IMG/VR virus record: IMGVR_UViG_3300047388_000069
Coordinates: 1-36,766 of that record
Reading direction: 5' to 3' (one strand)
Length of the DNA stretch: 36,766 nucleotides
Source of the DNA: a virus
In this document: one piece after another, positions 1 through 36,766 of the stretch
How positions within the stretch are numbered: the stretch's first letter is position 1
Layout: every line of letters begins with the position of its first letter
Made by a program: the position numbers and the translations under genes
The notes under the pieces: generated by a model
The model's database searches: none
What the model saw: only the letters and a program-made list of their open reading frames with translations
What the model was told of the DNA's origin: nothing

Positions 1-162
1 CGGCCGCTGCCGGCGAGGGTGCTCCGCGCAAACCGGATGCCCATGCGTTACCAATGCCATAACGTCGCGCGCCGACTCGAGGCCGAGCCGGCAGGCGATC
101 ACGAGCAGCGTAAAGAGCAGCACGAGCAGCACGAAGCCGCCGGCGAGCCAAGCGACGAGGTC
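1..162. repeat. Left copy of the terminal direct repeat
   Basis: These bases match the last 163 bases of the window, apart from one missing A (AA at 61-62 against AAA at 36664-36666). The likely reading is that the genome is circular or circularly permuted and the contig was closed with an overlap. It lies inside a gene, not at a packaging site, so a true DTR end is less likely. Confidence 0.93.
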
Positions 163-300
163 GCTCCGACGGATACGGACTAGCCGCCGCGACGGCTTCT
201 CCGCTCGAAGCGTGCCCCGCGCGATCGCGCGCTCGATCGTTCGCACGCTCACCTTCGCCTGCTCGGCGGCCTCAACCTTCGTTAGCCACGTTTGCGGCAC
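1..300 (-). CDS. Excisionase-type HTH protein fused to a membrane segment (runs off the window edge)
   Basis: The gene starts with GTG at 300 and reads towards base 1 for 100 codons without a stop, so it continues across the circular join. A strong ribosome binding site (AGAGGGGG, 306-313) precedes the start. Residues about 4-50 (TWLTKVEAAEQAKVSVRTIE and onwards) match the HTH_17/MerR-like excisionase fold. Directly after it comes a strongly hydrophobic stretch of about 19 residues (FVLLVLLFTLLVIACRLGL), a clear membrane helix. The order implies that the DNA-binding head faces the cytoplasm. The part after the helix depends on a one-base difference between the two terminal copies: one version ends near 36415, the other at 36455. 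HTH_17 proteins are normally soluble, so tethering is unusual. Possible roles are a regulator or an integration directionality factor; neither is proven. Confidence 0.72.
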   Translation of the reverse strand, partial: MPQTWLTKVEAAEQAKVSVRTIERAIARGTLRAEKPSRRLVRIRRSDLVAWLAGGFVLLVLLFTLLVIACRLGLESARDVMALVTHGHPVCAEHPRRQRP

Positions 301-347
301 CGGCCTACCCCCTCTTGCACGTTTGCGACCTCTCCCGAAGTCGGCCG

Positions 348-375
348 ATCGTTACAGGCCGCTCGAGCTCCGTCG
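348..375 (-). promoter_or_regulatory. Candidate promoter for the HTH-membrane gene
   Basis: On the minus strand CGACGG (375-370) is followed after 16 bases by AACGAT (353-348), which places the start site about 40 bases before the GTG at 300. The same CGACGG box appears with 17-base spacing in both divergent promoters near 15.6 kb. CGACGG is also a common coding hexamer here, so this is weak support. Confidence 0.35.
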
Positions 376-440
376 ACGCGTGCCGTGCAAAGATTCCCGC
401 AAAGAGCGAGAAAATCGTGCGAGGGCTCGCAAAAAATCTC

Positions 441-500
441 ATGCGACAGGATGCGACAGGATGCGACACAACGCGACAGGACGCGACAGGACGCGACAAA
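441..500. repeat. Six tandem 10-bp direct repeats (iteron-like)
   Basis: Six uninterrupted units follow the pattern ATGCGACAGG (441, 451), ATGCGACACA (461), ACGCGACAGG (471, 481) and ACGCGACAAA (491). The core GCGACA is invariant. A 10-bp period puts each copy on about the same face of the helix, as expected for cooperative binding by a small HTH protein. Excisionase and RDF binding sites, replication iterons or an operator array are all possible. Confidence 0.9.
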
Positions 501-545
501 ACCTCCGCAAATCTCGGAGCTCGAGGCCTGCTATACGGAGGGCCG

Positions 546-34419: not shown

Positions 34420-34436
34420 AAGGAGACTAGGACCCT

Positions 34437-35162
34437 ATGGGAGTTACAGGCGCACCGTGGTCGCTTCCCTACCCCGACTCAGACGACCCCGACGACGTCC
34501 CGGCCGACATTAAGAGGCTCGCCGACCGGCTACAAATTGTCCTGCCGTCCGCCTCGAGCGGCTCGCCGCCGACGACGCGCATCTACACGACCGGCGCCGG
34601 CACCTACACCGTGCCGGCGAACGTTAAGCAGATCGTCGTCGAGTGCATCGGCGGCGGCGGCGGCGGCGGCGGCGTCGGCTCGAACGCATCAGGCGGCTCA
34701 GGCGGCTCGAGCGGCGGCTACTCGCGCAAACGGATCACGACGCCGGCCGCAAGCTACGCCTACTCCGTCGGCGCTGCCGGCACCGCAGGCCCGTCCGGCG
34801 GCGGCTCACCCGGCGGCGCCGGCGGCGCGACGACGTTCGGCACGACGGTCGTCGTCGCGAACGGCGGGCCCGGCGGCGTCGGCACGACCAGCGCGACCGG
34901 CGGCGCACCCGGCGCCGTCGCGGCCGCCGGCACCGGCGACGTCGCCGTGCCCGGCAATCAAGGCCTACCCGGCTACACCTCGCCACAAGTCGGCGGCGCC
35001 GGCGCGCCGTCCGTGCTCGGCGGCGGCGGCGCGTGCGGCAACCTCGGCGGCAACGTCGGCGGCGCAGGCTCGACCGGCGGCGGCGGCGGCGGCTCGAGCG
35101 GCACGAGCAAGGCCGGCGGCGCAGGCGGCGCCGGCATCATCATCATTACGGAGCTCTACTAA
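34437..35162 (+). CDS. Glycine-rich tail adhesin
   Basis: This 241-residue protein starts at ATG 34437; AAAGGAG lies at 34419-34425. After a 50-residue N-terminal part it has TRIYTTGAGTYTVPANVKQI, the typical opening of glycine-rich phage domains, then a long Gly/Ser/Ala region. Polyglycine loops of this kind form receptor-binding tips (T2-like gp38 and actinophage proteins). The end, AGIIIITELY, is the usual closing strand. Host recognition is the likely role. Confidence 0.78.
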   Translation: MGVTGAPWSLPYPDSDDPDDVPADIKRLADRLQIVLPSASSGSPPTTRIYTTGAGTYTVPANVKQIVVECIGGGGGGGGVGSNASGGSGGSSGGYSRKRITTPAASYAYSVGAAGTAGPSGGGSPGGAGGATTFGTTVVVANGGPGGVGTTSATGGAPGAVAAAGTGDVAVPGNQGLPGYTSPQVGGAGAPSVLGGGGACGNLGGNVGGAGSTGGGGGGSSGTSKAGGAGGAGIIIITELY

Positions 35163-36100
35163 TGAACGGCGAGCCCGAAGTCTTCGCCGGCGAGTGGTGG
35201 ACGCACGCCTACCCCGGCGCGCCGATGGTCCCGCTGCCCGGCTTCCCCCGATCCCTCTACCCGCCGGACGCGGCCGCCTACGGCAAGAAGCCGTCGAGCG
35301 ACGGGCCGGACGTCGTCGCCTACAAACGCACCGTGAGCCGCGCCGGCCGGTGGCCGTGGCAGCCGTTCGACGACGCCTTCTCTAACGGCTTCGCGCACGG
35401 CACGAGCGGCAACGTCGGGCAGACAGGCCTCGCCGGCGTGCAACGGCAGCAACACGTCGACGGTACAGGGTGGCTCGGAAAAAAGACGTTCGACATACTC
35501 CGATCGATCGTCATACCCGACGGCCTGCCGCACGCCGGGCAGCAAGCAATGGACGCGACCGCCGCCGAGCTGCTCCGCGAGGCGTGGGAGCTCTTCGACG
35601 GCGCCGAGCCGGCGCCCGAAGACACCGGCACGCTACGGCAGAAGGCGCTCGAGCTCGCGATCGACGAGCTCGGCATAACCGAATCGCCGGCCGGCTCGAA
35701 TCACACAAAGTACGGATCGTGGTACGGCGTCGATTATCAGCCGTGGTGTGCGATCTTCGTTACGTGGTGCTACGAGCACGCAGGCGCGTCGCCTAGCTTC
35801 GTGAAGGGCTCGCGGTACGCCTACTGCCCGTATATCGTCGGCGACGCCCGAGCGGGCCGCTACGGGCTCAAGACGACCGACGACCCGATACCGGGCGACG
35901 TCGTCGTCTACGATTGGCACGGCGACGGCGTGCACGACCACGTCGGCATCTTCGAGAAGTGGACGTCGGGCGCGACCTACTTTCAGGCGATCGAGGGCAA
36001 CACCTCCTATTCGGACCAAAGCAACGGCGGCGAGGTGATGCGACGCGAGCGGTCGCGCACCGGACAGGGCACCGTTTTCGTGCGAGTGGCCGAGCCGTGA
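35162..36100 (+). CDS. Endolysin with CHAP domain
   Basis: This 312-residue lysin starts at ATG 35162 (TAATG overlap). Residues about 90-150 resemble a peptidoglycan-binding region of actinophage lysins (GLAGVQRQQHVDGTGWLGKK). The C-terminal CHAP domain (about 165-310) shows the catalytic Cys in QPWCAIFVTWC near 195 and the His in HDHVGIF near 260. CHAP enzymes cut peptide bonds of peptidoglycan. No signal peptide is visible, so release should need a holin. Confidence 0.9.
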   Translation: MNGEPEVFAGEWWTHAYPGAPMVPLPGFPRSLYPPDAAAYGKKPSSDGPDVVAYKRTVSRAGRWPWQPFDDAFSNGFAHGTSGNVGQTGLAGVQRQQHVDGTGWLGKKTFDILRSIVIPDGLPHAGQQAMDATAAELLREAWELFDGAEPAPEDTGTLRQKALELAIDELGITESPAGSNHTKYGSWYGVDYQPWCAIFVTWCYEHAGASPSFVKGSRYAYCPYIVGDARAGRYGLKTTDDPIPGDVVVYDWHGDGVHDHVGIFEKWTSGATYFQAIEGNTSYSDQSNGGEVMRRERSRTGQGTVFVRVAEP

Positions 36101-36255
36101 TCGTCGGCCTCGTCTCCGAAGACGTGCTCTATACGCTCAACTCGCTCGAGATTCTCGGCATTATCTATCTCGCGATCGCCGTCTCGAAGCTACGCGAGAA
36201 GATCGCGCACGTCGAGGGCAAGCTCGACCAGCGCGACCGCGACAACGGACGCTAG
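36097..36255 (+). CDS. Small one-span membrane protein, candidate holin
   Basis: This 52-residue protein starts at GTG 36097 (GTGA overlap with the endolysin). One hydrophobic helix (LEILGIIYLAIAVSKL) is followed by a charged coiled-coil-like tail. Its coupling to the endolysin suggests a lysis role. Its TAG stop shares CTAG with the stop of the opposing HTH gene. Confidence 0.6.
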   Translation: MIVGLVSEDVLYTLNSLEILGIIYLAIAVSKLREKIAHVEGKLDQRDRDNGR

Positions 36256-36479
36256 CCGCGCTCGCGCAGACGCCGGCCACGGACGACCCATCCCTGCACC
36301 GTCGAGGTGCCGACGCCGAGCGCTTGAGCAATCTCGCCGCGCGATGCTCCCTCTTCCTCGGACGCCCGCAACGTCTCGAGGAAGAGCTCGTCGGCGGTCC
36401 GCTCTTTGTCGGCGTCAAGCCGCCGGCGGCGCGCGAGCAATGCTTGCAGCTTGCTCACCGTTTGCGGCGAGAGAGGCAT
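36252..36479 (-). CDS. Small HTH regulator
   Basis: This 75-residue protein has an N-terminal basic helix (VSKLQALLARRRRLDADKER) and a C-terminal helix-turn-helix (ASRGEIAQALGVGTSTVQGW), similar to sigma-70 region 4/Xre-like folds. It starts at ATG 36479 with only a weak ribosome binding site. It is transcribed with the HTH-membrane gene upstream, whose end it overlaps. It may be the lysogeny repressor or an accessory regulator. Confidence 0.7.
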   Translation of the reverse strand: MPLSPQTVSKLQALLARRRRLDADKERTADELFLETLRASEEEGASRGEIAQALGVGTSTVQGWVVRGRRLRERG

Positions 36480-36766
36480 AAGAGCGGAGCGACCCTAACG
36501 GAAGTTTGCGACCCCTCGGTCTTGCGATCCTTCGCATACGTCGATGCCGGCGGCCCGCCGACGAGCGCGCTACCCACGCCGCCGGCATCGCGTACAGCCG
36601 GCCCGGCCGCTGCCGGCGAGGGTGCTCCGCGCAAACCGGATGCCCATGCGTTACCAATGCCATAAACGTCGCGCGCCGACTCGAGGCCGAGCCGGCAGGC
36701 GATCACGAGCAGCGTAAAGAGCAGCACGAGCAGCACGAAGCCGCCGGCGAGCCAAGCGACGAGGTC
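36455..36766 (-). CDS. HTH-membrane protein, continuation (partial, second copy)
   Basis: This is the other end of the gene described at 1-300; it enters at the right edge. The membrane helix (near 36690-36740) is repeated here. With the three-A version (36664-36666), the frame runs on to a stop at 36455 and gives a post-membrane part of about 69 residues rich in Gly, Ala and Pro. With the two-A version the frame would shift and end near 36415. Codon use slightly favours the three-A reading. Confidence 0.5.
   Translation of the reverse strand, partial: DLVAWLAGGFVLLVLLFTLLVIACRLGLESARDVYGIGNAWASGLRGAPSPAAAGPAVRDAGGVGSALVGGPPASTYAKDRKTEGSQTSVRVAPLLCLSRRKR
36604..36766. repeat. Right copy of the terminal direct repeat
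   Basis: It matches bases 1-162 with one extra A in the run at 36664-36666. It marks the overlap of a circular or permuted genome. Confidence 0.93.

Follow-up and report, generated by a model that had tools for sequence, protein, structure and literature searches.

The 36,766-base IMG/VR record IMGVR_UViG_3300047388_000069 (70.1% guanine plus cytosine, GC), analysed here over its entire length and referred to as the window, is the genome of a temperate-type siphophage in which the word CTGG and its complement CCAG are nearly absent. Its gene set comprises a serine integrase, an exonuclease, a RecT-like annealer, an N6/N4 methyltransferase, a primase/helicase and RusA, followed by terminase, portal, protease, major capsid, tail and endolysin genes. 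The large terminase subunit is 35-43% identical to those of phages of Streptomyces, Curtobacterium, Rhodococcus and Arthrobacter, and the hosts are probably soil actinobacteria. By the same marker, the nearest contigs are L001 and L002 (99% identity), followed by L003 to L008 (78-84%).

A sequence-only reading of the window had reported 2 CTGG and about 9 CCAG on the plus strand, where base composition would predict more than 200 of each. Exact counting over the whole contig returned 2 and 9, with composition-based expectations of 219 and 254. That expectation, however, overstates the effect, because the genome is generally poor in CC/GG, CCA/TGG, CCC and TCC; CGA/TCG is in excess. Given the weakness of the composition null, we thus applied two codon-level nulls, a looser one in which synonymous codons were shuffled within 27 curated coding sequences, and a stricter one in which proteins, codon usage and the dinucleotides at codon boundaries (each codon's next base) were all kept. 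Codon shuffling left CTGG/CCAG at 9 seen versus 175 expected (ratio 0.05, z about -18 to -20). With the strict null, 10 sites remained in the joined 27 coding sequences against 110 expected (ratio 0.09, z = -14.7), and 11 in all called genes against 128-130 (Poisson p about 1e-40), so that the depletion claimed from the letters persists when coding content is preserved. CTGG/CCAG is the most depleted 4-mer under both codon nulls, most clearly under the strict one, where the ratios of the remaining 4-mers are about 0.5 or higher and CTGG alone lies far below. The neighbouring word CTGC is normal (324 on both strands, ratio 1.04-1.34), in agreement with the specificity stated earlier.

The avoidance is independent of strand, spread over the whole genome and independent of reading frame where frame can be assessed. 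Both orientations are low on the coding strand (CTGG 2 of 78 expected, CCAG 9 of 49), and every frame with a sizeable expectation is depleted; frame 0 of CCAG, with only 1.5 sites expected, is uninformative. Outside the called genes (5.0 kb), a single CTGG/CCAG site stands against 50 GGTC/GACC. Codon choice bends accordingly, as had been noticed by eye: leucine codons preceding G are CTC (395), CTA (7) or CTT (5) and never CTG, all ten Asp-Trp pairs use GAT, and Leu-Trp pairs use CTA (8), CTT (2) or TTG (1). A codon-usage or transfer RNA constraint against leucine CTG before G might be suspected here, since leucine CTG is rare (49 of 754 leucine codons) and absent before G. The frame and strand comparisons refute this explanation, as the loss of both CTGG and CCAG extends to the remaining frames and the opposite strand, while CTG shows no avoidance before C (46 of the 49 codons).

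The strongly avoided word is best written CTGGV/BCCAG, because nine of the eleven surviving sites read CTGGT, eight of them CTGGTC (see table). CTGGG survives twice, CTGGA and CTGGC not at all, and the contig thus contains 2 CTGGV where about 104 are expected. The nine CTGGT include eight within genes, where about 23 would be expected, so this extension is partially avoided. In the relative G007, the purged word is CCTGG and all four surviving copies are CCTGGT; leniency towards a following T has therefore been seen twice, in the window and in G007. Sparing of CTGGTC alone (binomial p = 1e-6) was considered and is weakened by the observation that G007 keeps CCTGGT before C, G and T; a less targeted CTGGT is the simpler reading. 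Protection of the survivors by Mom-type modification at SASNY was rejected as well, as only five of the eight CTGGTC sites fit (contexts judged by eye).

Table. Surviving CTGG sites and genes of interest in the window; minus-strand CTGGTC reads GACCAG on the plus strand
Feature	Position	Strand	Remark
Large serine integrase	776..2245	-	phrog_95, E = 7.7e-68; points to a temperate lifestyle
Possible Mom-like protein, candidate DNA-modifying antirestriction enzyme	2983..3465	+	PF25680, E = 4.4e-4; weak, under the Pfam cut-off
Residual CTGGTC	6116..6119	-	
Residual CTGGTC	6128..6131	-	
Orphan N6/N4 DNA methyltransferase, C-terminal half CcrM/PvuII-like	6987..7811	+	PF01555, E = 1.8e-27; phrog_67
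Terminase large subunit	13565..15124	+	marker for placing relatives
Residual CTGGTC	19781..19784	-	
Residual CTGG (CTGGG)	20030..20033	+	one of the two CTGGV; within CTGGGACCAG, adjoins the site at 20036
Residual CTGGTC	20036..20039	-	
Residual CTGG (CTGGG)	22709..22712	+	the other CTGGV
Residual CTGGTA	26019..26022	-	
Residual CTGGTC	29229..29232	-	
Residual CTGGTC	32405..32408	-	
Residual CTGGTC	34888..34891	-	
Residual CTGGTC	36228..36231	-	sole survivor outside called genes

Positions at which relatives carry CTGG read in the window as GTGG, CTCG, TTGG, ATGG, CTGC, CTGA and others; among the replacements listed, CTAG appears a single time. The changes comprise both transitions and transversions and affect several positions of the word, the proteins staying intact, and no single substitution path away from CTGG dominates. 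As CTGG has been replaced by so many different words, no single mutational route accounts for its loss. Comparison with the near-identical L001 and L002 yielded one gained CTGG/CCAG in total, while placing the same single-nucleotide polymorphisms at random would give about six per comparison; the two comparisons overlap and are not independent. This shortfall points to purifying selection against CTGG that still continues.

CTGG is the most prominent member of a larger panel. Defining a purged word by a strict-null ratio below 0.2 and p < 1e-5, we found 13-14 independent purged words in the window, among them CTGG, CCGCGG, GGTCT, GATCTC, AGGACG, CTCTG, GAGGAG, GTCAG, GCGTAC, GGACT and GGGGCG; GGTCTC is likewise purged, and CAGAG occurs once where 20 are expected. 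The specificity reported by the sequence-only reading therefore stands among 4-mers, none of which is depleted to the same degree, and does not extend to longer words, since many 5- and 6-mers are equally purged. The purged words include palindromes (CCGCGG, CGTACG, AGCGCT, TGCGCA and TCCGGA), while CTGGV, GGTCT, GATCTC, AGGACG, GAGGAG, GTCAG, CTCTG, GGACT and GGGGCG are asymmetric. Palindromes are enriched among the strongly depleted hexamers (10 of 25 versus 153 of 1381, Fisher p = 2e-4). When gapped 3+3 words were scanned blindly, only GACN5GTC passed the threshold, in the window (0 of 16.5 expected) and in the relative G003 (0 of 16.3); this gapped palindrome has the shape of a Type II site, and no Type I-like gapped motif passed besides it. 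The shapes of the window's purged words are those of restriction targets. In a survey of 111 phage stretches, words such as GCCGGC, CCGCGG, GGCGCC, CTCGAG and GAGCTC were purged in other phages. The window had the most purged words of that survey, and its CTGG ratio of 0.08 was below all others (next 0.41, median 1.01).

The avoidance of CTGG is lineage-specific. The sister phages G005, G006, G008 and G009, which belong to the same terminase clade (69-81% terminase identity to the window), carry CTGG near expectation under the strict null; G005, G006 and G008 have no purged word and G009 has one, with the reservation that gene calls in the relatives are heuristic and several contigs may be fragments. 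The panels of G003 and G007 overlap that of the window and differ from it. GATCTC and GGTCTC are almost missing from all three genomes, whereas GAAGAC is absent from G007 and present 41 times in the window, and CCGCGG occurs once in the window versus 45 and 75 times in G003 and G007. GCCGGC is absent from the 37.5-kb contig of G003 (L178, L179) and occurs 101-295 times in relatives, with 295 copies in the window. The contig names of G003, G007 and G008 (L003, L007 and L008) share a metagenome number, which places relatives with and without purged words in a single sample. In another phage, G012 (L190, L191), a different single word is purged (GGACC/GGTCC, 18 seen versus 94 expected). A separate observation concerns another phage lineage, represented by L108 (5.9 kb), L287 and L288 (15.6 kb), IMG/VR contigs that come in part from the same metagenomes: here the 3-mer CTG/CAG itself is depleted (observed/expected 0.12-0.26 at 67-69% GC, in all frames not fixed by codon usage), with TTG/CAA raised and TCGA and CGAC/GTCG low.

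Searches for a host gave no close candidate. The only terminase match in bacterial genome contigs was a Microtetraspora prophage (46% identity), the best matches within one whole class (297 genomes) reached 41-43% and included no close relative, nothing close was found in a three-genome class, and none of the sampled genomes came near the window in composition. Among 396 Actinomycetota genomes, sampled in place of the host, in which SSCTGGSS was compared with its reversed control, the lowest ratio was 0.19, while the window has 0 of 102. The lowest ratios of this survey, about 0.2, belong to two related actinobacterial genomes, G177 and G284. Pieces of these (L061, L062) are depleted in CTA/TAG and CTG/CAG generally (0.19-0.47) rather than in CTGG, and the listed CTGG sites of G177 cluster on its contig C24, perhaps foreign DNA.

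Why should a phage remove a word of four or five bases so thoroughly from its genome? We consider it highly probable that the window was purged through selection by site-specific, restriction-type host defences, a judgement that refers to restriction-type selection as such. Several sequence-specific defences of probably actinobacterial hosts would have selected against their respective target words, the strongest being directed at CTGG, chiefly at CTGGV (complement BCCAG), whatever its strand or position. If one unmodified site is enough for cleavage, every site is costly on its own, as with Type II enzymes, and loss independent of strand and position would be selected. The CTGG signal would be the strongest because a target of 4-5 bases occurs roughly a hundred times in unselected DNA of the same coding content, and the tolerance of CTGGT could mean that T lies outside the target or that an overlapping modification shields CTGGT. 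We infer that the agent is a restriction-type nuclease, likely Type II-like. This interpretation is supported by the multi-motif panel with its palindromes and GACN5GTC, by the independence of strand and frame, by the mixed replacements and by the non-avoiding sisters.

Several points weigh against it. No characterised enzyme specific for CTGG or CTGGV is known to us, and a literature search for methylation or restriction specificities at CTGG/CCAG found none. CTGG and CTGGV are asymmetric, unlike the palindromic words of most documented cases of avoidance; in the survey of Rusinov et al. (2018, PMC6286503), avoidance concerned mainly orthodox Type II sites, while several of the window's words are asymmetric, and full elimination was rarer in temperate phages. 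The methyltransferase and the possible Mom-like protein might furthermore be expected to lessen the need for purging. A non-Type II defence (Type III, Type IIG/IIL, BREX or Pgl-like) directed at CTGGV and several asymmetric words, which would be a narrower form of restriction-type selection and not exclusive of it, is conceivable, if rather doubtful. It would suit the many asymmetric words and the loss of CAGAG, which is recorded in the 2018 survey as an avoided Type III site, yet both orientations are purged, which leaves no room for strand-biased escape from enzymes that need head-to-head sites, and the same survey reported no avoidance of Type I and IIG sites and only rare avoidance of Type III sites (PMC6286503). 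More tentatively still, an undescribed actinobacterial defence may attack asymmetric CTGGV on either strand and tolerate CTGGT, and its class (Type IIG/IIL, Type III, BREX-like or new) would be one not previously known to force near-complete elimination of sites from a phage.

The earlier reading had also named a phosphorothioation-type defence and a host-wide mutational or repair bias as possible causes; its remaining candidate, restriction, is the one favoured by the panel, the strand and frame independence, the replacements and the sisters. A bias of the host lineage, with CTGG prone to mutation or faulty repair and the phage sharing the deficit, appears improbable to us. It would agree with the window's broad deficit of CC/GG and CCA and its excess of CGA/TCG, with a similar background of low CCC and high CGA in some actinobacterial pieces and with the low CTGG ratios of G177 and G284, though CTG and CTA are generally low in these two. 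The CTGG effect, however, survives the null that fixes codon usage together with the dinucleotides at codon boundaries. From deamination or biased repair one preferred path would be expected, whereas the replacements run in all directions, with no single deamination path and with CTAG found only once. Such a bias would also have to spare same-clade sisters, including G008 from the metagenome of G003 and G007, to purge many unrelated words including palindromes, and to reach in the window a degree of depletion that none of the 396 sampled actinobacterial genomes approaches. A phosphorothioation-based defence (Dnd or Ssp) with a mark related to CTGG/CCAG seems more improbable still. The Ssp mark CCA does lie within CCAG and such systems occur in Streptomyces (PMC9646914); outside CCAG, however, the strict null shows no more than a mild deficit of CCA (ACCA/TGGT 0.69, GCCA/TGGC 0.76 and TCCA/TGGA 0.72, versus 0.09 for CCAG/CTGG). 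In addition, SspE reportedly responds to marks on the host's own DNA, and only a small fraction of CCA sites is modified (PMC9646914), leaving little cause to remove one particular word. A further dozen unrelated purged words would be left unexplained.

The window itself encodes two candidate DNA-modifying enzymes. The methyltransferase, which also matches CcrM and N4-cytosine methyltransferases, may offer the phage DNA partial self-protection. The Mom-like candidate has 80 related loci spread widely among phages and may, given these relatives, be a general accessory enzyme. Neither gene is accepted as the cause of the purging, since words are also purged in G003 and G007, which lack homologues of both. 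Apart from these genes, a 941-amino-acid open reading frame lies between the capsid and connector genes (21636-24461), part of which matches phage concanavalin A-like lectin/glucanase and tail proteins (28-35% identity).

Under restriction-type selection, the words missing from a phage genome would record which sequence-specific defences the phage has survived, and the overlapping yet different panels of the window, G003 and G007 would then be predicted specificities to seek in uncultured actinobacteria. Six of the purged words, GACN5GTC, CCGCGG, CGTACG, TGCGCA, TCCGGA and GGTCTC, are what we take to be sites of the AhdI, SacII, BsiWI, FspI, BspEI and BsaI types, respectively, and the recovery of such known Type II sites suggests that the method finds genuine restriction targets; for CTGGV, GATCTC and AGGACG we know of no enzyme. 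The Ssp defence resembles the window in that its mark CCA overlaps CCAG, but the window does not purge CCA as such, and its other words and the dependence of SspE on host marks do not fit (PMC9646914). The closest parallel is the restriction-site avoidance of double-stranded DNA phages described by Rusinov et al. (PMC6286503), in which recognition-like words are likewise removed genome-wide at largely synonymous positions, palindromic hexamers are prominent and elimination can be near complete. The window differs from these phages in being temperate-type, with 13-14 purged words, many of them asymmetric and led by an asymmetric word of 4-5 base pairs. Strong elimination, reportedly less common in temperate phages, thus coincides here with elimination of asymmetric words, reportedly rare, and relative to that survey the asymmetric part of the window's panel is unusual.

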